From the IMG/VR virus record IMGVR_UViG_3300025093_000818, positions 1 to 20,409 of that record: a stretch of 20,409 bases of DNA; one strand, written 5' to 3'. A program made the position numbers and the translations under genes. Positions within the stretch are counted from its first letter, which is position 1. Every line of letters starts with the position of its first letter. The DNA is from a virus. Positions 1,981 to 17,518 of the stretch are shown piece by piece. The notes under the pieces were generated by a model, which was given only the letters and a program-made list of their open reading frames with translations, did not search any database and was not told the origin of the DNA.

Positions 1981-3540
1981 ATGGCAACAAAAAATCACCC
2001 AAACAGAGGAAATGCCAACCAAGGGCAATTCTTGGAACTTCCCGGAGGGAAGAAACATTTAATACCAGACCCGTCACTCAAGGAGATTGCGAGATGGTAC
2101 ACCGATCACCCTATGCACAATCGGAGTGGTGGCGTTACACAATTCTCACCTAAGAGAAATGAGCATCGTGGGTTTATAGAAATGCCTCTGCTTGGTAGTG
2201 GGTATGATGACGTGTTCTTGAGTGCTATTGTTAAGGGTACTATTCATGGACAAGGGTTAACCCCTGTTATTGATGGTGAATTGTCGGGTGTGTTAAGACG
2301 TTTTCAAATGATGACACATGATTGGATAACTATGATGAAGTCATCCTTTGAAAGCCCAATGAATAACCTGAACAATTTCTTAGCTATGGCTGAAGGTGGA
2401 GAAGGTATAAACAAGTTTATCAGTAACGCCACAGGGGGGTTGCTGAGTCAGAACTCGGGTTTTATATTTGCACAGTTGCCATTGCATAGACCAGTTGAAG
2501 AGTGGTCGGATTGGGGTGGTCGAGTAGAACCTTTACTGGATAGAAATGGGAATGATACTGGCCGATATATTTTCGACATAGACGCTAATGACTATATGAG
2601 AGAACGTGCGTTGTGGAGTCTGGACAATATTCAAATAGACCCTACTGGTGATCCAGAGTATCCGTTCTGGATACGAAAAGTAAGTGATAATGATGTTGAC
2701 AGAGATGTAAAAGAGTTTCCGATAAGAGCCACAAATAGCAAGAAGTCAAGAAGTGAAGAGATGTGGATATTGATCCACAAAAATTATGGAACGCAGATTG
2801 TTGGTGAGGTTGGTTCAGTTTCTTACGATATGGCAGGTTACTGGTCTTGCCCATCGTACACATATTTTGGCGATATGGGCGTTATGAATGCAATGGTTAT
2901 GGAGTATAACCAAGAGGGGTTCTTTAATAGCCCCCCTGAAGGGCTGGTTGTCTTGACCGGTGCTGATGATAGTGAGCAATTCGGCCGAATAATGACTGAG
3001 CATATAAGGGACAGGGAAGCTAACAATAGCCTGTACTATCCGGGCGTTCTGTGGATGAGCGTCAAGAATACACAGGGTAAAGTGTTCAGCGTGCCATTTA
3101 AACAGCCAAAAGAGACATTTAATCACGAGGAGTTTATTCGATTAAAGCAAAGACGCTTGGCATTGGCTTTTGGGCTTTCTCTGAACTTTGTTACCCTAGA
3201 GATTGGGGTTGGTGCTGTGCATCAAGCCAATGTCGCTGATAACATTGCTGAGATAACAGGTATTAGCTTTGTAAAAAACAAAATACAACAAATGGTGAAC
3301 ACTACAATTGCGCCACGCAGAGTGTTGGTTCAGGTTTCGATACCATCATCAAGCGCAAGAGCGCAACAGGCCACAATGTTAAACAACTTGGCAAATGGTA
3401 TAAGGCAATTACAAGATGCTGGTGCTGGTTTGTCAAGTAATCAAGTTGTTATGCTTACGGAGAAGATAATGGGGATAACTGTACCTACAGACGAGGAGGG
3501 TGATTTGAGTATTGAGTCAAGTCAAGGAGAGATTGAATGA
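1981..3540 (+). CDS. Portal protein
   Basis: The portal forms the dodecameric ring at the capsid vertex that docks the terminase and lets DNA in and out. I assign it from its place directly after the large terminase, its length (519 residues) and its C-terminal half. That half has an Arg/Lys-rich helix, then LALAFGLSLNFVTLE, then a helical region (HQANVADNIAE, then KNKIQQMVNTTIAPR). This layout resembles the clip/wing region of HK97/SPP1-type portals, where the residues after an 'AFGxP/S' motif precede long helices. The C-terminus is acidic. ATG 1981 has no SD. An in-frame TTG at 2032 with AAGGG at 2021-2025 is an alternative start that would remove 17 residues. The stop overlaps the next start (ATGA). 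I see no single diagnostic motif, so the call rests mainly on context. Confidence 0.75.
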   Translation: MATKNHPNRGNANQGQFLELPGGKKHLIPDPSLKEIARWYTDHPMHNRSGGVTQFSPKRNEHRGFIEMPLLGSGYDDVFLSAIVKGTIHGQGLTPVIDGELSGVLRRFQMMTHDWITMMKSSFESPMNNLNNFLAMAEGGEGINKFISNATGGLLSQNSGFIFAQLPLHRPVEEWSDWGGRVEPLLDRNGNDTGRYIFDIDANDYMRERALWSLDNIQIDPTGDPEYPFWIRKVSDNDVDRDVKEFPIRATNSKKSRSEEMWILIHKNYGTQIVGEVGSVSYDMAGYWSCPSYTYFGDMGVMNAMVMEYNQEGFFNSPPEGLVVLTGADDSEQFGRIMTEHIRDREANNSLYYPGVLWMSVKNTQGKVFSVPFKQPKETFNHEEFIRLKQRRLALAFGLSLNFVTLEIGVGAVHQANVADNIAEITGISFVKNKIQQMVNTTIAPRRVLVQVSIPSSSARAQQATMLNNLANGIRQLQDAGAGLSSNQVVMLTEKIMGITVPTDEEGDLSIESSQGEIE

Positions 3541-3938
3541 GAGAGCCAAAGGATATATCACTTATGCAAATAATGCGACTAATTCACACAAGAATGTGTG
3601 AACATGTCGATGGTACAGACAGTGAACATTATGCCAACTTTTCTATATTGGGGATAGACTTTACCCTATGCCCCCAATGTTACAAGGAGCTATTTGAACA
3701 AATGAAAAGAAATTTGCCAGAAGAGCCAAAAGAAGTCAAAACCACAGTCACACTATGCAAAAACTGCCATCGCAGACATGGGGGAGAGGTTGCAGATACG
3801 GAGCATATTTCTTGGCGGTGTAAGAAATGTAAGTGGCACAATTCAGGAAAGGTCACTCATGGAGTATATGTTTCAGGGAAGTGTTATAGTGGCGATATGA
3901 AAATAAGAGATAATGTCTACAATACGTCTAAAAAATAA
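3537..3938 (+). CDS. Small zinc-ribbon-like protein
   Basis: This 133-residue soluble protein starts in the ATGA overlap with the portal stop, so the two are probably translationally coupled. It has four Cys clusters: Cys21 with His22, CPQC (45-48), CKNC followed by His78 and His81 (74-77), and CKKC (95-98), plus Cys116. Paired CxxC knuckles of this kind bind Zn2+ in zinc-ribbon proteins. The N-terminal half is helical. Its function is unknown; the position suggests a packaging or head-assembly accessory, or a nucleic-acid-binding protein. It is the last gene before a long non-coding gap. Confidence 0.75.
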   Translation: MREPKDISLMQIMRLIHTRMCEHVDGTDSEHYANFSILGIDFTLCPQCYKELFEQMKRNLPEEPKEVKTTVTLCKNCHRRHGGEVADTEHISWRCKKCKWHNSGKVTHGVYVSGKCYSGDMKIRDNVYNTSKK

Positions 3939-3939
3939 C

Positions 3940-3967
3940 TTGAATATCTAGGGACTTATGGTAAAAT
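3940..3967 (+). promoter_or_regulatory. Weak sigma70-like promoter, unit 1 of the 3.9-4.2 kb gap
   Basis: TTGAAT (3940-3945), a 16-bp spacer, then TAAAAT (3962-3967). The -10 box lies inside a short palindrome, ATGGTA-AAA-TACCAT (3958-3972), which could be an operator or a small hairpin. The predicted start near 3974 gives about 58 nt before the T-tract at 4027-4032. Confidence 0.4.
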
Positions 3968-3999
3968 ACCATTGAAATAGATAATTGTTCATAATAAAA

Positions 4000-4032
4000 C
4001 CGTCAAGTATCACGTTTACTTGGCGGTTTTTT
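4000..4032 (+). terminator. Intrinsic terminator, unit 1
   Basis: CCGTCAAGT (4000-4008) pairs with ACTTGGCGG (4018-4026), with one wobble and a 9-nt loop. Six T residues follow (4027-4032), and AAAA precedes the stem. Only one base separates the T-tract from the next -35 box. Confidence 0.85.
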
Positions 4033-4033
4033 C

Positions 4034-4062
4034 TTGACAAAGAGTTTGTGGTTTGGTATACT
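4034..4062 (+). promoter_or_regulatory. Strong sigma70-like promoter, unit 2
   Basis: TTGACA (4034-4039), a 17-bp spacer, then TATACT (4057-4062). This is a near-consensus promoter placed immediately after the unit 1 terminator. The predicted start near 4069 gives about 62 nt before the next T-tract. Confidence 0.75.
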
Positions 4063-4094
4063 AATTCTATCCACAAGGGAAAATTGATAAAGTT

Positions 4095-4131
4095 AAGAGC
4101 CACTCTTTTTACCAGATTGAGTGGCTTTTTT
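4095..4131 (+). terminator. Intrinsic terminator, unit 2
   Basis: GCCACTC (4099-4105) pairs perfectly with GAGTGGC (4119-4125) around a 13-nt loop. The stem can extend through AAGA / TTTT with one wobble. Six T residues follow (4126-4131). Confidence 0.8.
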
Positions 4132-4140
4132 CTTCCCCAC

Positions 4141-4169
4141 TTGACAAAACTCATACACCAATATAAAAT
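4141..4169 (+). promoter_or_regulatory. Sigma70-like promoter, unit 3
   Basis: TTGACA (4141-4146), then TAAAAT (4164-4169) after 17 bp; TATAAA (4162-4167) after 15 bp is an alternative -10. The -35 is perfect and the flanks are very AT-rich. The predicted start near 4176 gives about 50 nt before the T-tract at 4222-4228. Confidence 0.65.
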
Positions 4170-4195
4170 AAAGTATATATTTACTTAGCGTACAG

Positions 4196-4228
4196 CACCC
4201 GTACCATTTTATGGACGGGTGTTTTTTT
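4196..4228 (+). terminator. Intrinsic terminator/attenuator directly ahead of the capsid module
   Basis: CACCCGT (4196-4202) pairs with ACGGGTG (4215-4221), with CCAT/ATGG pairing inside, followed by seven T residues (4222-4228). The T-tract continues into ATTTTAAGGT, which supplies the SD (AAGG, 4234-4237) of the gene at 4245. Any promoter upstream must read through it, so it would act as an attenuator or as a 5' stabilising hairpin. The block TTTTTTTATTTTAAGGT recurs identically at 17160-17176. Confidence 0.8.
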
Positions 4229-4244
4229 ATTTTAAGGTCAACAT

Positions 4245-4556
4245 ATGCCACAAAATACAAATTGCGTAACAGACTTGACATTCCCGTGTTGTACTAGAAC
4301 TGATGAACTTGACTGCCTGACAGAAATTGTCGCTCAGTGCGGTTGCCCTGTTTATCCTACTTGGGAGTTGTTTCAGGAAACGTTAGATAATGCCACTATT
4401 ATTACGAACTTGGAGACAGATGGGAATTACACATCTGTAGAGTTACTTGATAAAGCAACAGAGGCTCAAGTTTTAGCGGTAACTGGAATTGGCCCGGCTT
4501 CACTTGCGGAACTTCAAGCTGCAATGGGCGTTTATAACCTACAGATTAATCCATAA
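4245..4556 (+). CDS. Small Cys-rich protein with a C-terminal helix-hairpin-helix motif
   Basis: The protein has 103 residues. The N-terminal third is Cys-rich (Cys7, 15, 16, 24, 32, 34), which may indicate metal binding or disulfides. The C-terminus (about 66-97) reads as two helices around VTGIGPASLAEL. The GIGPAS hairpin (81-86) is the signature of non-sequence-specific DNA-binding helix-hairpin-helix folds such as those of RuvA, although here it could also be a protein-protein module. SD AAGG lies 7 nt upstream, and the TAATG stop/start overlap with the protease gene implies co-translation. It is the first gene of the capsid module, so a capsid-associated role is inferred. The function is unknown. 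Confidence 0.75.
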   Translation: MPQNTNCVTDLTFPCCTRTDELDCLTEIVAQCGCPVYPTWELFQETLDNATIITNLETDGNYTSVELLDKATEAQVLAVTGIGPASLAELQAAMGVYNLQINP

Positions 4557-5770
4557 TGAGCAAGAAAAAAACAAGTGTCAAGTTAGTTGTATCACAACCT
4601 GTTAAATCCAGTTTCGCCAACTTAAGGGTGAATGGGGTAAGTGTTGATGATAGTAAAAAGTGGAATGAGTATGTTTCATTTCTGTCGAATGATTTAGGTA
4701 TGAATTTAGTCAGTGGTTTTGGTTGGGATCACCAACTAAGACGTATGGCTAATGAGGGTCTAGTATCAGCGATAGAGTTTGATGCAGTCACATTCATTCA
4801 AGGCGAGAACGCCAATAGTGTTGGTTTTCTTGATGAAGAATTAGATGATTTTGCAGAAAGTTTTGTAAATGATCCGTTTCTGAGAAATCACCAACAACAC
4901 TTAATAGAAAAGCGTGATGGCACAATTCTTGAGTCAAGAAATCAGAATGGTGAATTTATTCAGAAGATAAAGATTACCACAGAAGAAGGAATTCGGGATT
5001 TCTCGCAAGGGAGAATCGACAGATTTAGTATTGGCTTTCATTCTAATAACTTAACATGTTCTGTCTGTGGGTTAGATTACTACAGTTATGATTGTACGCA
5101 CTTCAGAGGTCGTGAATACGGCGAGTTAGGTAAATGTATTGTTATTTTTAATAAGCCCGAAGGTGTTGAAACTTCGGCGGTAAATGTTCCGGCCGTTGCC
5201 GGGACACACATTTTATCCTTGTCAGAAATTGATGACAGAAAACAGGAGGTTTTTATGGATAAAGAAGAGGATGTGATGGAACAAGATAATCATGTTCTGT
5301 CTACCGACGAGGTTGATAATACCTCAGAAGAAACTAACAAGTTAGAAGAAATTGCAAAAGAATTGCATTTAGGCGATATTGACCAACGAATTGGTGCTAT
5401 TGAAGAATTGCTTAACTCTTTTGTTCCGACTTTTGACGCTTTAGCTGAAAAAGTTGCTCAATTAGAAGATGAAAAAAATGAATTGGCAATACAATTAGCT
5501 AAGTTTAACGGCGATTTGCCACCTCAGTATGAAGCTGTAAGTCAAACGGCTAAACGATTATCTTGGGGTAGTTATGGTGGTAGCAAGTTGAATATCAACG
5601 GAACTACGCCAATGCCTGATCGTGAAGTTCGCGAACCACAAGCGTTGAAAAGATCGGTTGAGGCTGAGTATCGTCAAATAAACAAGATTGAATTACCTGA
5701 AAATGCACCTAAACGGATCAAACGTGGTGCAGGGTTGCTAAATAACTTGCGTACACAGGAGGGTAAATAA
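4556..5770 (+). CDS. HK97-type prohead protease fused to capsid scaffold domain
   Basis: This is a prohead maturation protease (S78-like herpesvirus/HK97 fold) that cleaves scaffold and capsid precursors inside the procapsid. Residues 1-220 hold the protease: NHQQ (His112) in the position of the family 'nHd' histidine, IDRFSIGF with nucleophile candidate Ser158, and the closing strand VETSAVNVPAVAG (204-216), matching the usual 'EVSxVxxPA'. An insertion, CSVCG...CTH (Cys168, Cys171, Cys180, His182), looks like a zinc knuckle. Residues 234-404 are the acidic, coiled-coil scaffold (helix about 260-320), ending in a basic tail. Start ATG 4556 overlaps the previous stop. A strong internal SD at 5244-5249 permits separate synthesis of the scaffold. 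The capsid gene overlaps the stop. Confidence 0.85.
   Translation: MSKKKTSVKLVVSQPVKSSFANLRVNGVSVDDSKKWNEYVSFLSNDLGMNLVSGFGWDHQLRRMANEGLVSAIEFDAVTFIQGENANSVGFLDEELDDFAESFVNDPFLRNHQQHLIEKRDGTILESRNQNGEFIQKIKITTEEGIRDFSQGRIDRFSIGFHSNNLTCSVCGLDYYSYDCTHFRGREYGELGKCIVIFNKPEGVETSAVNVPAVAGTHILSLSEIDDRKQEVFMDKEEDVMEQDNHVLSTDEVDNTSEETNKLEEIAKELHLGDIDQRIGAIEELLNSFVPTFDALAEKVAQLEDEKNELAIQLAKFNGDLPPQYEAVSQTAKRLSWGSYGGSKLNINGTTPMPDREVREPQALKRSVEAEYRQINKIELPENAPKRIKRGAGLLNNLRTQEGK
5244..5249 (+). promoter_or_regulatory. Internal ribosome binding site for the nested scaffold
   Basis: AGGAGG sits 5 nt ahead of an in-frame ATG at 5255, inside the protease-scaffold gene at the domain boundary. It is as strong as the SD of the capsid gene itself. 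Confidence 0.8.
5255..5770 (+). CDS. Scaffold protein made from an internal in-frame start
   Basis: ATG 5255 (Met234 of the protease-scaffold) with AGGAGG at 5244-5249 would give a 171-residue protein identical to the C-terminal domain. It is acidic at the N-terminus (MDKEEDVMEQDN) and has a predicted coiled coil. The C-terminal segment is basic (APKRIKRG), as in scaffolds that bind the inner capsid surface. The nested arrangement parallels lambda C/Nu3, where the scaffold is produced in excess over the protease from the same frame. The SD and frame are seen directly; the assembly role is inferred from family and position. Confidence 0.7.
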   Translation: MDKEEDVMEQDNHVLSTDEVDNTSEETNKLEEIAKELHLGDIDQRIGAIEELLNSFVPTFDALAEKVAQLEDEKNELAIQLAKFNGDLPPQYEAVSQTAKRLSWGSYGGSKLNINGTTPMPDREVREPQALKRSVEAEYRQINKIELPENAPKRIKRGAGLLNNLRTQEGK

Positions 5771-7524
5771 TGTCTCTTGAATACGAAAACAGTACAGTAG
5801 TATTCGGTAAATATGGTGATGTTTGCCAAGGGCCACAACTTGATTGGCGTATGAAGTGCAAGGATGAAATTATCCTTAACACACCAATTGTTTTCACGGA
5901 TTTATTCTGGAAGAACTTACCTTATGAAGCTATCATTAAAGACAGCTCTACTATTAACTTCCGTCAACCAAATCTTATGGAAGGTGGTAGTGGTGATGAT
6001 GCTTGTAAGCCTAGCACTGCAAATGTAAGCACAGAATTATGCGACTTTGTTTTACCAAATCTTCAACACATTCGTATTGGTACAGGTCGTGAAGATTACA
6101 TGCAGATGCGTGATAAATTCTGTGAAAAATTCCCTCAATTTAATGGTTTTTCTCCATTTGATAAAGTGGGCAACACAGTTGTTTTCCGCAAAGGCGATAA
6201 CAGTGAAGCAATGTTGACTTTTGCTGGTGAGAAAGCCGGTGAGTTAAGTTTTGCTAGTTGGGAACATTTGACCCGTACTTATTGGGTAGGTGAAAAAGAA
6301 AACGTTGACGAGTTTGATGGGTTCTTTGATATTTTGAGTACTGGTTTGACTGAACAAGTTGTTGGTACTTGCGACTATCCGTTAACTCCTACTACGATTA
6401 ATATTGCTGAGTACATTATCGGTATTACGGCCGTGGCCGCAGGTAGCACAGTAGGTCCCGGAGACATTGTCTTAGCCCCAACCGATCCTGACTATCCTAC
6501 AGGTGATACACCAAACGCTAACAACATCGTTACTATCCACGCTGGAACGCAATACGAAACTACATTGGACATTACAGGCTTTGATACAGTCGATTTGCTT
6601 ACCGAATGGTACAGATATATTACCGAAGAGTGGGGTGTAGCTGTATTCACTTGGTTGACTGGTATTGGTAAAGGTCAAACAAAGTGTATCGCAGAAGTGG
6701 CCGCTTGTAAACGAGCTTGCCAAGGGCAAGACTGTCGTCAGTTACTTGTTTCTGACAATCGTGATATGGCACGTTCTGAGCGTCAAGCACGATATGTAAA
6801 TCGCAAAGAAATCGAACTTTGGCCTTATGACCCAACCTTCCCGCTTATTCAATCTCCTGCATTAAAACAACGAAATGAAATCTTGTTTATGCCATGGGAA
6901 TTCGAGATGAATGGCGATAGAGCTAATTCATTGCTCTGGGTTTTTCGTGACCAACAATCTAGTAATAAAGGCTTACTCCGTGACGTTCCACCAATGCGTA
7001 GTGAAATTTTACGTGGCAACATGCCTAGCACACCACTACACAACTTGCAAGAGTTTCCCGATTTAGGTGAAGCGTTTGAAAACCGTGCTTTTGACTGGTT
7101 GATGGAGAAATTCTACAACTGCTTTGAGTGGTGGTTGAATTCAGAACAGTTACTATTACCCCAAGCACCACACCTCTGGCTGTATATTCAAGGTGTTGAC
7201 TGTAGTCAAGTGTTAGTACGTCCTTGTAATAATCCGGGTCGTCAAGAGGCAATTTTGACCTGTTCAGCGACTACACCAAATTCAGTATTCAGAGTAACCA
7301 TCGACAATGCTGGTGGAGACTTCAATTGTGCAGTTGGCAGTAAAGTTCGTATCGTGTCAGCAAATGGTAATACTAACCTTCAAGGTGAAATTACTACGAT
7401 TCATGACGATACCGATCCTGTTGATATTAGCATCACGCTTGACGAGTTAGGTCCATATGCTGATTGTACATGGGATGGCACTGCGTTGGATGCTGGCGGT
7501 AAAATTCTATACAATTTGTGCTAA
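5770..7524 (+). CDS. Major capsid protein (probable)
   Basis: The call rests on the position directly after the protease/scaffold, a strong SD (AGGAGGG, 5756-5762), TAATG coupling and a codon choice that looks smoother than that of its neighbours, as expected for the most abundant virion protein. It has 584 residues, longer than a minimal HK97-fold subunit. Two stretches look like additions: a Pro/Thr/Gly-rich segment near residues 200-265, and a C-terminal beta-rich domain of about 105 residues that could be an Ig-like or surface decoration domain. There are about 17 cysteines, many of them near the termini, which is unusual for a capsid protein. I see no short diagnostic motif, so the assignment is contextual. 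A terminator-like hairpin follows. Confidence 0.7.
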   Translation: MSLEYENSTVVFGKYGDVCQGPQLDWRMKCKDEIILNTPIVFTDLFWKNLPYEAIIKDSSTINFRQPNLMEGGSGDDACKPSTANVSTELCDFVLPNLQHIRIGTGREDYMQMRDKFCEKFPQFNGFSPFDKVGNTVVFRKGDNSEAMLTFAGEKAGELSFASWEHLTRTYWVGEKENVDEFDGFFDILSTGLTEQVVGTCDYPLTPTTINIAEYIIGITAVAAGSTVGPGDIVLAPTDPDYPTGDTPNANNIVTIHAGTQYETTLDITGFDTVDLLTEWYRYITEEWGVAVFTWLTGIGKGQTKCIAEVAACKRACQGQDCRQLLVSDNRDMARSERQARYVNRKEIELWPYDPTFPLIQSPALKQRNEILFMPWEFEMNGDRANSLLWVFRDQQSSNKGLLRDVPPMRSEILRGNMPSTPLHNLQEFPDLGEAFENRAFDWLMEKFYNCFEWWLNSEQLLLPQAPHLWLYIQGVDCSQVLVRPCNNPGRQEAILTCSATTPNSVFRVTIDNAGGDFNCAVGSKVRIVSANGNTNLQGEITTIHDDTDPVDISITLDELGPYADCTWDGTALDAGGKILYNLC

Positions 7525-7867: not shown

Positions 7868-8176
7868 ATGGAAGAGATGTTAATTCTAATATCAGCAATA
7901 TCACTTAACTATTTAATAGTCCTTTATTTGGTGAAGGATAACGGCCCTGCTGATGTGTTTATGAAGTTTAGGAAAGCTATTGGTGTCAATGTTCCAATTA
8001 CTGACATTGATGGCGATATTGTTGAGTACGAAAGCGATGGTACACTGGTGGCTGATATGATAACATGTCACAGGTGCTTTGGGTTTTGGAGTGGTTTAAC
8101 AGTTGGGCTAATTTGGGGATTGGGTATTCACAGTACAATTATCGTAATTGCGGGGAGTGTTTTGCTTCATGAATAA
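7868..8176 (+). CDS. Small membrane protein with a CHRCFGFW motif
   Basis: This 102-residue protein has hydrophobic segments at about 4-22 and 75-100 around a soluble middle. Just before the second segment is ITCHRCFGFWSG (Cys67, Cys70, Trp74). A membrane-proximal 'CxxCxxFW' is characteristic of small DUF1360-like membrane proteins seen in phages and bacteria; that family match is from memory and unconfirmed. It starts two bases after the previous stop, with no clear SD, so it probably relies on translational coupling. It overlaps the next gene by 8 nt. Its role in the virion or infection is unknown. Confidence 0.7.
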   Translation: MEEMLILISAISLNYLIVLYLVKDNGPADVFMKFRKAIGVNVPITDIDGDIVEYESDGTLVADMITCHRCFGFWSGLTVGLIWGLGIHSTIIVIAGSVLLHE

Positions 8177-13108: not shown

Positions 13109-13350
13109 TGATAAACGCAATAAAATCCTTATTTCAATCTAGGAAATTCCTACTTGCACTATTTGCATTAATTACCAGCATTGTTGCCCACTACGCAGAT
13201 ATACCAACAGAAATATGGGTTGCATTTGATGCAGTAATTATGGTACTAATTAACGCTATTGCCAAAGAGGATGCGGCCGAGAAATCCAATCCAAACAATA
13301 ACCAATATAAACACAGTAGTAACTACACATCAACCAATAAATTCACATGA
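13108..13350 (+). CDS. Holin-like small membrane protein
   Basis: The 80 residues have two predicted membrane segments (about 14-28 FLLALFALITSIVAH, and 36-52 IWVAFDAVIMVLINAIA). These are preceded by a basic SLFQSRK and followed by a charged, Asn/Ser-rich soluble tail (KEDAAEKSN...). Small size, two helices, and an ATGA overlap with a cell-wall-hydrolase gene are the classic holin/endolysin arrangement. A holin would open the inner membrane to release the lysin, which has no obvious signal peptide. There is no sequence motif specific to holins, so the call depends on context and topology. Confidence 0.65.
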   Translation: MINAIKSLFQSRKFLLALFALITSIVAHYADIPTEIWVAFDAVIMVLINAIAKEDAAEKSNPNNNQYKHSSNYTSTNKFT

Positions 13351-16300
13351 TAAATAAAGTAGGTTTCCATACAGGCCCGGGCGGTAATCGCACTGGAATC
13401 AATGAAGATTATATACAGAAGTTGAATAGTGAAGGTGTTCAGGCTGTTATTAAGTCTGTCGATGATTATGGCCCAATATGGGAACTTATGCAATCTTCTA
13501 ACACATTGAACGTTGGGATATTTAGACTATCTCATGGTGGTTTTGACCTTCCAGATTACAATAAATCACCATGGGGAGCGGCCGTTGAGCATTGGCAAAA
13601 TATCTTATTTGCGTTACCGCCAGAATTCGACAAGCGTGTTTGGTTGGAAGTAATTAACGAACCAGACAAGAATCGCTCAGAATGGCTTGCCGATTTCTCA
13701 AAAAGCATTGCAACTATGATGCTTGAAGATGGGTACAAACCCGCGCTGTTTTCGTGGTCTAGTGGTGAGCCTGAACCAACTGATTGGACAGCCCCTAAAA
13801 TGGCAAGTTTACTGCAATGGGTTGGTGAACAGAACGGCAACGTAGCTATCGCATTGCATGAGTACGATTATGGCCGTATCGGAATGGAAAATACATACCC
13901 TAATCACATCGGCCGTTACACGAGATTAATAGATGCTTGTCGTCAGATGAACATATCTGTACCACCTATCTTAATTACAGAATGGGGATGGTCATACAAT
14001 AATATACCGCCACAAGAGCAGTGCATGACCGATATTGATTGGGCTGGCAGACTGTATGGATCAGAGACATCAATAAAGGGTGCTGGTATGTGGTATCTTG
14101 GTGGTGGAAGTAGTTGGGACAATATTTGCGACAAAGTTCAAAAACTAATAAAACCTACAGGTGAATGGTGCGTTGAAAACAGTACACCCGGAACAAATCC
14201 CCCACCGTTGCCACCACCTGATAGTGGGCAATGGCAAACAGTAGTTGATGAATGGTTTGAGGGTTACAATGATCCGCAAGGTTCCGATTGGTACGATCAA
14301 GATGGTGTGCAACAAGTGAGAAACGGGTGGGTATTGGCGTATCAGCAAGGATACAATAATGAAGTGCCACCAGAACAGCAAGAGGAAAATCAATACGGTT
14401 TAATGGAAGCAATATTTAGATGGGATGCTTTTGTTCCTCCTGAAGAATGGGACACACTATTAAACGAAAAAGGTCACGCTTACAAAGTTTTTGCACGTCA
14501 ACAGGCTTGGAATGGTGCATGGCAAGATACTGAATTACTACCAGCAGGAACTTATAGGTTAACATTAGAATATTTTGATGACAATTATGTCGACATTGTT
14601 GATGGTGCTAAAGTACCACCACCTGACCCACTTAGCTTTGAAGCTATGGTAGGAATGGGAAATGCTACAAGCTGGGACGACTCAGGATGGATAACATCAA
14701 TGTTTCAAATGGACAATGTAATACAGTTAACAATTACTACCACTGAACCAATGTCACCATTTTATAAATTACGTGGTAGATGGGCGATACTAAACCTATC
14801 TGCATGGGTGAAGAGATTTCATGTAGAACTATTGACTAGTATTCCTGAGCCACCAATCGAGCCACCTAACAATGAAGGTTGTGCAAGAGTCCCATACAAC
14901 AGGACAGTTATAGTCCCTAGTTCTGATATATCACTAAATGAATACTTGGACTTAGCTAGATTGGCGTTCAACGAAAAAGGTACAATTGGATTCAGCTATG
15001 ATGATGCTGGTATAGGATGTGGTCTATCCTCAAAAACAGCAATACTCTATGGTATATCTGAAGAAAATGAACAAACTTTCTTGGATTGGTATAATCAGTA
15101 TTATCCTAGCACCATTGTTAGATTCCGTTCTGTTCCTAAAAAAAACTTTAAGTTCACCCACTGGCCTACAGAATACAAGCAAATAACGCAAGGGTTTGGA
15201 GAAAATCCAGAAGATTATTACCCTTTGCCGGGACACGAGGGAGTTGATATGGTTGCTCCTCATGACTCGAAAATTTTCGCGGTAGCCAATGGTACAGTCA
15301 GCGACATGAGAGACTTAGGTGACAATAATCATGCTTATGGTCGGTTCGTAAGAGTATTGCACGATGATATATTACATGAAACCACTTACGCACATCTAAA
15401 TAGTATCTCTGTGGTATTAGGTCAGAGAGTCTATGGCGGTCAGGAGATTGGCAGGGCTGATAATACGGGGAATAGCCGTGGGAGTCACTTGCACTTAACA
15501 TTAAAACGTGAAGGTGCTACCACAAATGGTGAGACTGAATACCCTTACGATATAATTAACCCTGAGCCGTTTTTGGAGCCGTTGTTAGGCGATGACACAG
15601 GGAATGTTGCTTTTGGTGTTCATTGTTCCGCTACGGGCAATCTCGCAAGCGGTGAGGAGGATGTGATTAATATCGTTTCTCCAGAAATTATAAAGGTTCT
15701 CTCTTCCATGCCAGCACATGAAGTGACTCAATTGGCTACCACTCACCCTAACGCAGTATTTGTCGTGAGAGCTTTCTTGAGTTGGGGAAATAGATATATT
15801 ACGGCGCAAGACTTTTACCATTGGACATATGCAGATGTAGAAAGAACCATTGATGCAATTGGTGAAGGCCGAGAAGTATTACTGGAGATTCACAACGAGC
15901 CTAATCTAGCACTAGAAGGTTGTAATTTTGGTCAGGGTGGCTCATGGGCTAACGGACAAGAGTTTGCCACTTGGTTTATTGATGCTTTGAATCTATTTCA
16001 TGTAAGATTTGGAGATAGAGTTAGATACATGTACCCCGGCCTTTCTCCGGGGGGTAATATTAGTGGGCAAAGAATAAGTAATCAAACATTCTTTATCGAC
16101 TCTATAAACGCTTGGCAGATGGCCGATGCGTTAGGGGTTCATGCTTACTGGAATGAGGGGTTTAATCTGGACAGTGCCATTGATATTGTGAGTTGGTACA
16201 GAAATTACACTGTTAAAGATATTTATGTTACAGAGGCAAGTAATAATAGCGGTAGTGTTGATAATGTAACAAAGGGTCAACAGTATATTGAGTTTTGGGA

Positions 16301-16442
16301 TAAGTTGAAAACCATACAAGATGTAAAAGGGTTGATGTATTTCGTATTGTCTGCATTAGATGGTACATTTGATAGTGAAATCTGGGTAAAGAATGGGGAG
16401 AGTAATGGAATAGCAGAAGTGGTTTCTGGAAGAGGAGGTTGA
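13347..16442 (+). CDS. Giant multidomain lysin: glycosidase-like, beta domain, M23 endopeptidase, second glycosidase-like
   Basis: The protein has 1031 residues. Residues 1-275 form a TIM-barrel glycoside-hydrolase-like domain with clan GH-A catalytic signatures, LEVINEP (acid/base Glu105) and LITEWGW (nucleophile Glu212). A Pro-rich linker (281-294) leads to a beta-sandwich/CBM-like region (295-497). After a second Pro-rich linker and a spacer, residues 603-748 are a LytM/M23 zinc endopeptidase with GHEGVD (His630, Asp634), YAHL (His683) and GSHLHL (His714, His716), so all metal and catalytic residues are present. Residues 752-1031 are a second GH-A-like barrel with LEIHNEPNL (Glu851) and VTEASNN (Glu963). 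M23 enzymes cut peptidoglycan cross-bridges. The glycosidases may cut glycan strands or an outer polysaccharide. It lacks a signal peptide. Its place after the holin argues for an endolysin; a tail-borne enzyme is the alternative. Confidence 0.85.
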   Translation: MINKVGFHTGPGGNRTGINEDYIQKLNSEGVQAVIKSVDDYGPIWELMQSSNTLNVGIFRLSHGGFDLPDYNKSPWGAAVEHWQNILFALPPEFDKRVWLEVINEPDKNRSEWLADFSKSIATMMLEDGYKPALFSWSSGEPEPTDWTAPKMASLLQWVGEQNGNVAIALHEYDYGRIGMENTYPNHIGRYTRLIDACRQMNISVPPILITEWGWSYNNIPPQEQCMTDIDWAGRLYGSETSIKGAGMWYLGGGSSWDNICDKVQKLIKPTGEWCVENSTPGTNPPPLPPPDSGQWQTVVDEWFEGYNDPQGSDWYDQDGVQQVRNGWVLAYQQGYNNEVPPEQQEENQYGLMEAIFRWDAFVPPEEWDTLLNEKGHAYKVFARQQAWNGAWQDTELLPAGTYRLTLEYFDDNYVDIVDGAKVPPPDPLSFEAMVGMGNATSWDDSGWITSMFQMDNVIQLTITTTEPMSPFYKLRGRWAILNLSAWVKRFHVELLTSIPEPPIEPPNNEGCARVPYNRTVIVPSSDISLNEYLDLARLAFNEKGTIGFSYDDAGIGCGLSSKTAILYGISEENEQTFLDWYNQYYPSTIVRFRSVPKKNFKFTHWPTEYKQITQGFGENPEDYYPLPGHEGVDMVAPHDSKIFAVANGTVSDMRDLGDNNHAYGRFVRVLHDDILHETTYAHLNSISVVLGQRVYGGQEIGRADNTGNSRGSHLHLTLKREGATTNGETEYPYDIINPEPFLEPLLGDDTGNVAFGVHCSATGNLASGEEDVINIVSPEIIKVLSSMPAHEVTQLATTHPNAVFVVRAFLSWGNRYITAQDFYHWTYADVERTIDAIGEGREVLLEIHNEPNLALEGCNFGQGGSWANGQEFATWFIDALNLFHVRFGDRVRYMYPGLSPGGNISGQRISNQTFFIDSINAWQMADALGVHAYWNEGFNLDSAIDIVSWYRNYTVKDIYVTEASNNSGSVDNVTKGQQYIEFWDKLKTIQDVKGLMYFVLSALDGTFDSEIWVKNGESNGIAEVVSGRGG

Positions 16443-16887: not shown

Positions 16888-16895
16888 AGAAAAAG

Positions 16896-16919
16896 AAAAA
16901 GCCTGTCATAGAGACAGGC
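16896..16919 (-). terminator. Minus-strand intrinsic terminator
   Basis: GCCTGTC (16901-16907) pairs perfectly with GACAGGC (16913-16919) around a 5-nt loop. The A-run before it on the + strand (16896-16900, then more A after one G) makes a U-tract for RNA read from the minus strand. On the + strand no T-tract follows, so it is oriented against all the annotated genes. Confidence 0.7.
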
Positions 16920-16959
16920 CAAAGGATATATATGACATCAATAACTTAGGTCTATAGTT

Positions 16960-16988
16960 ATGATAACATGATTATTGATTATTTGCAA
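16960..16988 (-). promoter_or_regulatory. Minus-strand sigma70-like promoter sharing a -35 box with the + promoter
   Basis: On the minus strand: TTGCAA (16988-16983), a 17-bp spacer, then TATCAT (16965-16960). TTGCAA is its own reverse complement and also serves the + strand promoter. The -10 lies in a small palindrome GTTATGATAAC (16957-16967). The predicted RNA would start near 16953 and end in the minus terminator after about 55-60 nt. Confidence 0.4.
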
Positions 16989-17011
16989 AAAGTGGTAAAT
17001 CCATATATAAT
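16983..17011 (+). promoter_or_regulatory. Sigma70-like promoter, first + unit of the 17 kb gap
   Basis: TTGCAA (16983-16988), a 17-bp spacer, then a perfect TATAAT (17006-17011). The predicted start near 17018 gives about 55 nt before the hairpin's T-run near 17070. Confidence 0.65.
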
Positions 17012-17049
17012 AAAAGGGAATTTCATAGGTTTTAGTTCACCCTCCTCTT

Positions 17050-17080
17050 AGCACCTCTTTATGGGGTGCTTTTATATTTA
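17050..17080 (+). terminator. Intrinsic terminator, first + unit
   Basis: AGCACCTC (17050-17057) pairs with GGGGTGCT (17063-17070), 8 bp with one wobble and a 5-nt loop. It is followed by TTTATATTTATT, a broken T-tract, so termination may be less efficient than at the other sites. Confidence 0.65.
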
Positions 17081-17089
17081 TTGTACAAC

Positions 17090-17118
17090 TTGACCCACAC
17101 CTATAATTATATTATAAT
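17090..17118 (+). promoter_or_regulatory. Strong sigma70-like promoter, second + unit
   Basis: TTGACC (17090-17095), a 17-bp spacer, then a perfect TATAAT (17113-17118). The predicted start near 17125 gives about 40 nt before the final T-tract at 17160-17166. Confidence 0.8.
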
Positions 17119-17136
17119 ACTTAAAACCGTACCCAA

Positions 17137-17166
17137 AGCGTACCTTGCAAAAGGTGCGCTTTTTTT
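17137..17166 (+). terminator. Intrinsic terminator/attenuator directly ahead of the tail module
   Basis: AGCGTACCTT (17137-17146) pairs with AAGGTGCGCT (17151-17160), with one wobble and a GCAA tetraloop (GNRA type, very stable). Seven T residues follow (17160-17166). The T-tract continues as ATTTTAAGGT into the SD of the gene at 17183, exactly as before the gene at 4245. Confidence 0.8.
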
Positions 17167-17182
17167 ATTTTAAGGTGACAAT

Positions 17183-17518
17183 ATGCCTACTTTTTTAAAT
17201 TGTTTCTTTGAAAACAATCCAGATTTACTAACGCAATTGGTGGCAGAAGTTCTTGCGGAGATGGCGGTTGCCAATTTCGTTAACGAAATACCTATCGGTG
17301 TTATTGATGGGATAAATACGACATTCACGCTGACTCAAATCCCTAATCCATCACAAGCAATTGTGTTGTATTTACTGGACACAGCACCGGGCGCAACACT
17401 ACTAGAACAACCCACGGATTACACCTATACACTGGTGGGTGGAACTACACCTACCCTAGAGTTAGCAATAGCACCATTAGTTACCCAAGAATTGCAAGTA
17501 TCCTATTACGCTGTTTAA
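17183..17518 (+). CDS. Small virion protein with a C-terminal beta-sandwich domain
   Basis: The protein has 111 residues. The N-terminal 35 residues are helical (LLTQLVAEVLAEMAVANFV). The remainder follows a pattern common in tail and baseplate proteins of tailed phages: GVIDGINTTFTLTQIPNP, an LYLL strand, PTDYTYTL, a LELAIAP strand, then a closing LQVSYYAV strand. That is a small beta sandwich of the 'NGxNxTFTL ... VYLNG ... DYT ... VxY' type. SD AAGG (17172-17175) lies 7 nt from the ATG, and the leader is described separately. It is the first gene of the last module; its role in the tail or head-tail junction is inferred. Confidence 0.7.
   Translation: MPTFLNCFFENNPDLLTQLVAEVLAEMAVANFVNEIPIGVIDGINTTFTLTQIPNPSQAIVLYLLDTAPGATLLEQPTDYTYTLVGGTTPTLELAIAPLVTQELQVSYYAV

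Follow-up and report, generated by a model that had tools for sequence, protein, structure and literature searches.

Tandem promoter-terminator units before the head genes of an uncultivated phage as candidate read-through gates

In the lambdoid phages, the late promoter pR' is followed by an intrinsic terminator, tR', and then by the late genes, read-through of the terminator with Q (lambda Q, 21Q) being the switch (PMC6606751). The 21Q binding site is a direct repeat of 6 bp (PMC6606751). RNA may also be involved, as in phage HK022, where the putRNA of about 70 nt comprises two stem-loops and putL lies just downstream of its promoter (PMC9378689). In the conAn system of pLS20-type conjugation operons, an element at the operon start allows only the polymerase of that promoter to pass many terminators, and such gates can also exclude spurious transcripts (PMC8955417). 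Little is known of the timing of late genes in phages outside the well-studied hosts.

We have analysed here a 20,409-nt stretch of DNA (IMGVR_UViG_3300025093_000818, positions 1 to 20,409; called here the window), a partial record of an uncultivated phage. As at the lambdoid Q gate, promoter, short leader, intrinsic terminator and operon follow one another in the window, a layout read from sequence that stands ahead of three gene blocks. The window differs from the Q gate in its three tandem promoter-terminator (P-T) units and its several gates per genome. Moreover, its direct repeat CGTAC-N6-CGTACC lies downstream of the start, in the transcribed leader, whereas the Q site is found between the -35 and -10 elements. 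The leaders of distant relatives resemble HK022 put in opening with two hairpins immediately downstream of the promoter; unlike HK022 put, which serves early genes, the window's own leaders lack a two-hairpin element. ConAn differs from the window gates in being a protein and RNA system of plasmids. The order of structured leader, terminator, Shine-Dalgarno (SD) sequence and gene is also that of riboswitches, T-boxes and protein-binding leaders; unlike these, the stretches tested gave no Rfam leader or riboswitch at gathering score, and no antiterminator pairing is visible in the window. We regard the arrays as a variant of the promoter-proximal terminator gate that is new, and the leader RNA families of the relatives as the most interesting by-product.

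The 306-nt gap ahead of the head genes

The gap (3939-4244, 306 nt) holds three P-T units, then an SD sequence and a gene, all on the plus strand, as read from the sequence and a folding scan. The earlier note had placed promoters at 3940, 4034 and 4141 and hairpins with T-tracts ending at 4032, 4131 and 4228, and all six elements were recovered at these positions. The promoter-like P1 (TTGAAT-16-TAAAAT, 3940-3967) scores 9/12 with an extended -10 (TG before the -10). It is the weakest element of the set and may be a chance match, sites of at least 9/12 numbering 37 in 10 kb compared to 27.1 in shuffles, so that a match of this grade is common by chance. A perfect dyad, ATGGTA-AAA-TACCAT (3958-3972), covers the -10 of P1 and is operator-like. 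P2 (TTGACA-17-TATACT, 4034-4062), also with an extended -10 (TG), and P3 (TTGACA-17-TAAAAT, 4141-4169) both score 11/12; an AT-rich TATATA near the +1 of P3, looked at as a -10-like pause element, is not distinctive.

The predicted intrinsic terminators are T1 (3997-4032; hairpin 3997-4029, -17.0 kcal/mol, T-tract to 4032), T2 (4097-4131; hairpin 4097-4127, -14.3 kcal/mol, T-tract to 4131) and T3 (4195-4228; hairpin 4195-4222, -16.7 kcal/mol, T-tract to 4228), the T3 stem having a probability of at least 0.995 and its hairpin ending 22 nt before the ATG of the first gene. The built-in terminator scan, in which loops are limited to 8 nt and other cut-offs apply, listed none of the three, and T1-T3 are therefore calls of the folding scan. 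Folding of each unit, as the earlier note had proposed, gave short RNAs of 59, 64 and 55 nt for units 1, 2 and 3, which fold better than 200 of 200 shuffles each (z of -5.4, -3.3 and -4.4). The direct repeat CGTAC-N6-CGTACC spans 4189-4205, its second copy falling within the 5' arm of T3. No repeated sequence was found among the three short RNAs or units, and unit-to-unit duplication as the origin of the array was ruled out, the units being without common repeats.

The P-T layout is real and clearly non-random. Three P-T pairs are observed in the gap whereas none of 1000 dinucleotide shuffles contained any, and the second array described below likewise gave 0/1000. The same scan detected six P-T pairs in the window and 27 in other phage and bacterial loci totalling 3.06 Mb (0.18 per 20.4 kb, or 0.23 at loci under 45% GC), counts that are strong but not blind since the thresholds of the scan were set with knowledge of the window. 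Same-strand stretches that contain two pairs within 400 nt occur twice in the window and once in the 3.06 Mb of other loci. On the two strands of the window taken together, there are only three promoters of at least 11/12, two in the gap and one in the second array.

Further candidate gates in the window

The P-T layout precedes three gene blocks, at the gap, at a second array (16888-17182) and between terL and the portal-like gene (P0-T0, 1815-1958). The second array has the order P4-T4-P5-T5 followed by a gene at 17183, again on the plus strand. The promoter-like P4 (TTTGCA-18-TATAAT or TTGCAA-17-TATAAT, 16982-17011) scores 10/12 and is followed by T4 (17050-17073; hairpin 17050-17070, -12.6 kcal/mol), and P5 (TTGACC-17-TATAAT, 17090-17118) scores 11/12 and is followed by T5 (17135-17166; hairpin 17135-17162 and T-tract, -17.1 kcal/mol), 20 nt from the ATG at 17183. 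At the terL end, the promoter-like P0 (TTGACA-17-TACTAT with TG, 1815-1843, 10/12) leads to T0 (1935-1966; hairpin 1935-1958 and T-tract, -14.7 kcal/mol), 22 nt from the ATG at 1981 of the portal-like gene. This plus-strand unit is weaker than the arrays, with a leader fold z of -3.15 and a P0-T0 distance of 92 nt, just beyond the limit of the cassette scan. As the hairpins of T0, T3 and T5 end 22, 22 and 20 nt upstream of an ATG, expression from the promoters at these three places must cross a terminator.

The two arrays have several sequences in common, among them TTTTTTTATTTTAAGGT-N4-5-ATATGCC. When up to 1 mismatch is allowed, CGTAC-N6-CGTACC matches the window only twice, at 4189 and at 17128 (17128-17144). 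In both arrays the second copy falls within the 5' arm of the last hairpin, and all three occurrences of CGTACC on the plus strand lie inside these repeats. The segment 4222-4249, made of T-tract, SD-like AAGGT and start, resembles 17160-17187 (89% over 28 nt, E 2.4e-5); an exact-pattern search for the shared SD region came back empty. Alignment of the two final leaders with their gene starts scores 171, compared to at most 136 in 1000 shuffles, which suggests common descent of the two leaders but not more, since for the leader part alone (P3-T3 against P5-T5) 35 of 1000 shuffles score as high. Paralogy of the genes that follow the two arrays is unsupported (E 0.26).

On the minus strand, a P-T pair runs from TTTGCA-18-TATCAT to a hairpin at 16920-16900 of -13.5 kcal/mol (16989-16900, from sequence and folding scan), with no evident minus-strand gene after it. 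Its -35 overlaps the -35 of P4.

Leader RNAs in distant relatives

The collections searched yielded no close relative of this phage or of its gap. Used as a query against phage and plasmid DNA, the gap gave no match, and single-protein scans of viral contigs with the protease, TerL, capsid and portal proteins gave no relative. More distant relatives of the protease occur in viral contigs and in MAG contigs titled Chloroflexota, Caldilineaceae, Anaerolineae or unclassified bacterium; relatives of TerL only have in most cases no other window protein in common. The protease-relative loci were screened for P-T pairs and for terminators just upstream of an SD sequence and start codon. A subset of these distant phages has the order promoter, leader, terminator, SD, first small gene, ahead of TerL/portal/protease or portal/protease blocks (packaging/head operons), and many protease relatives have no cassette detectable in this screen. 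The conservation that the earlier note had called for in related genomes thus extends to the layout, and to leader families other than those of the window, but was not found for the gap's own -35/-10 elements and stems.

The relatives' leaders fall into two covarying three-hairpin RNA families, which we regard as new candidate families, their members having been found with the covariance models R1 and R2 (11 and 7 members). Family b (L257, L267, L275, L278, L281, L284, L288, L294, L298, L300 and L303) has in many members a conserved internal loop with a C/C mismatch in hairpin 1, a second hairpin AGGC-GACT-GCCT and a terminator mostly beginning AGCCGCG. Family a (L250, L251, L258, L264, L282 and, twice, L290) has a first hairpin, a short weak hairpin around TCGGAAATGA and a terminator mostly beginning CCCGGCG or CCCGACG. 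In family b, 96.4% of cells are paired and 12 pairs are changed on both sides (34 such cells); in family a, 100% of cells are paired and 11 pairs are changed on both sides (19 cells); none of 500 shuffles did as well in either case, the pair counts being biased towards structure because each alignment had been made by fitting to its model. R1 had been built from a six-sequence MAFFT alignment, which led to the same verdict with fewer changes. Since hairpin 2 is nearly invariant, covariation tells little about it, and the support comes from hairpin 1 and the terminator stem. Of the 9 family b leaders checked, 8 have a -10-like hexamer 15-18 nt upstream of hairpin 1, and L290 carries one leader RNA twice (4683-4763 and 8005-8085), ahead of two different genes.

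Neither family has an Rfam match at gathering score, and nothing in the phage collection matched the leaders of L278 and L290. A search with R1 at 1e-6 of 400 genomes from the phylum to which L183's genome belongs gave no match, a weak negative run without positive control. In three relatives (L269 408-511, L319 5859-5990 and L297 2036-2072), the terminator loop is complementary to the stretch directly after the T-tract, as in CCCGCGCCCTT with AAGGGCGCGGG, and might form a pseudoknot or an alternative fold with it. In L269 and L319, the order terminator-promoter-terminator was seen as well.

The R1 and R2 models have no significant match in the window, and no two-hairpin element is found at the 5' end of the window leaders, nor any hairpins before T3 or T5. 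The best unfiltered hits, at T5 (E 0.007 and 0.013) and T3 (E 0.08 and 0.019), probably reflect the terminator half. The T5 stem core GCGTACC/GGTGCGC is identical in L267 and L288, which is a suggestive detail only. In the absence of a significant model match, the window has the layout of the relatives in common with them, not their leader RNA.

Readings of the promoter-terminator layout

The explanation that we favour, with a probability of about one half, is that the P-T arrays gate late operons and are opened when polymerase reads through, most likely owing to a phage antitermination factor. The 306-nt gap would be the control region of the head-gene operon, with two strong and one weaker putative σ70-type promoters, each having a predicted intrinsic terminator within about 65 nt, and would be one of three gates in the fragment, all of them leading into what appears to be a structural operon or gene block. 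Unmodified polymerase would make only RNAs of about 50-65 nt, and polymerase rendered termination-resistant by the phage factor would pass the terminators so that the operon is expressed. With three units in series, the three promoters would add up once the terminators are ignored, and unmodified or upstream transcripts would be cut at each terminator. Antitermination would account for promoters placed before terminators, for their recurrence before structural blocks and for the stacked units. It presumes that the promoters are used, that the terminators work and that read-through is regulated and not merely leaky. By our analysis, three mechanisms are left: Q-like control by a trans-acting antitermination factor, put-like antitermination assisted by RNA in the relatives, and plain leakage.

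Leakage combined with insulation is possible, though rather unlikely. T1 would end the upstream operon, T2 and T3 would damp transcription, and the head operon would live on constant partial read-through with nothing switched. T1 begins about 60 nt downstream of the stop codon of that operon (3938) and could simply be its end, P3 follows directly after T2, the window bears no sign of regulation, and strong promoters could offset incomplete read-through; indeed, leaky terminators would give an identical map. Such an economy would however be wasteful for structural genes, and the relatives keep the promoter-leader-terminator order with a covarying leader in between, which mere leakage does not need. 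It is quite improbable that the P-T units serve to encode trans-acting small RNAs of 53-63 nt: every unit has all the parts of a minimal transcription unit, including a stable 3' hairpin, and the minus-strand unit leads to no evident gene, but the short RNAs have no repeated sequence in common, T0, T3 and T5 lie only 20-22 nt from ATGs, and the presence of one leader before two different genes in L290 points to action in cis.

The leader of phage T7 gene 10 is known to protect the 5' end of the mRNA and to enhance translation. A similar role for the hairpin and the U-rich stretch before the SD sequence would fit the constant 20-22-nt spacing to the ATG and the U-rich stretch before AAGGT in both arrays, but leaves unexplained the long T-tracts and T1, T2 and T4, which stand ahead of promoters and not of genes, so that we hold it very improbable as the main function. 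Least probable of all is a self-contained attenuator or riboswitch, in which refolding of the leader blocks the terminator. Terminators just upstream of genes are typical of attenuators and the relatives' leaders are structured; however, the terminator stems form at P>=0.97 in all transcripts tested (5' end at P1, P2 or P3) and no upstream stretch pairs with the 5' arm of a terminator over more than 4 bp, which together make a self-refolding leader unlikely. Concerning the earlier proposal that the terminators are conditional, the 20-22-nt spacing at three starts, together with the layout and covarying leader in the relatives, favours read-through, whereas leader attenuation by alternative folding found no support in the window.

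A more far-reaching version of the antitermination reading is unlikely, but would extend it to a broad uncultivated group with an undescribed system: in the relatives, a put-like two-hairpin RNA (the two new families) right after the promoter would carry polymerase past the adjoining terminator, and this phage would have lost the RNA, its tandem P-T units with CGTAC-N6-CGTACC forming the gate together with a trans-acting factor. The recurring P-T gate and two covarying leader families without Rfam match offer a concrete and cheaply testable handle on late-gene timing, and gates or leaders may yield new sequence-defined antitermination parts.

No antitermination factor or regulator was found among the window proteins searched, and no Q homologue was seen in this partial 20-kb record. 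By position only, a candidate regulator is the 133-aa protein encoded directly upstream of the array (3537-3938), which has CxxC pairs and a zinc-ribbon resemblance below curated cut-offs. After the array come a 103-aa protein (4245-4556) with a weak helix-hairpin-helix resemblance, all matches being below cut-offs, the prohead protease (4556-5770), with up to 54% identity over the core in L244, and the putative major capsid protein (5770-7524), assigned without family match from its position downstream of the protease, all on the plus strand. AlphaFold models of two small neighbouring proteins (pLDDT 50 and 36) were too poor for use. The plus-strand gene with its ATG at 1981 is a putative portal gene by position, and TerL (106-1818) has an extra 50-70 residues or so around residues 300-367 that are absent from aligned relatives. 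The 1031-aa protein encoded at 13347-16442 contains a metallo-endopeptidase-like region near residues 625-745. The protease is a separate gene in the window, and in L126, L174, L183, L119 and L116 it forms one frame with a long downstream part that was labelled capsid-like by eye.
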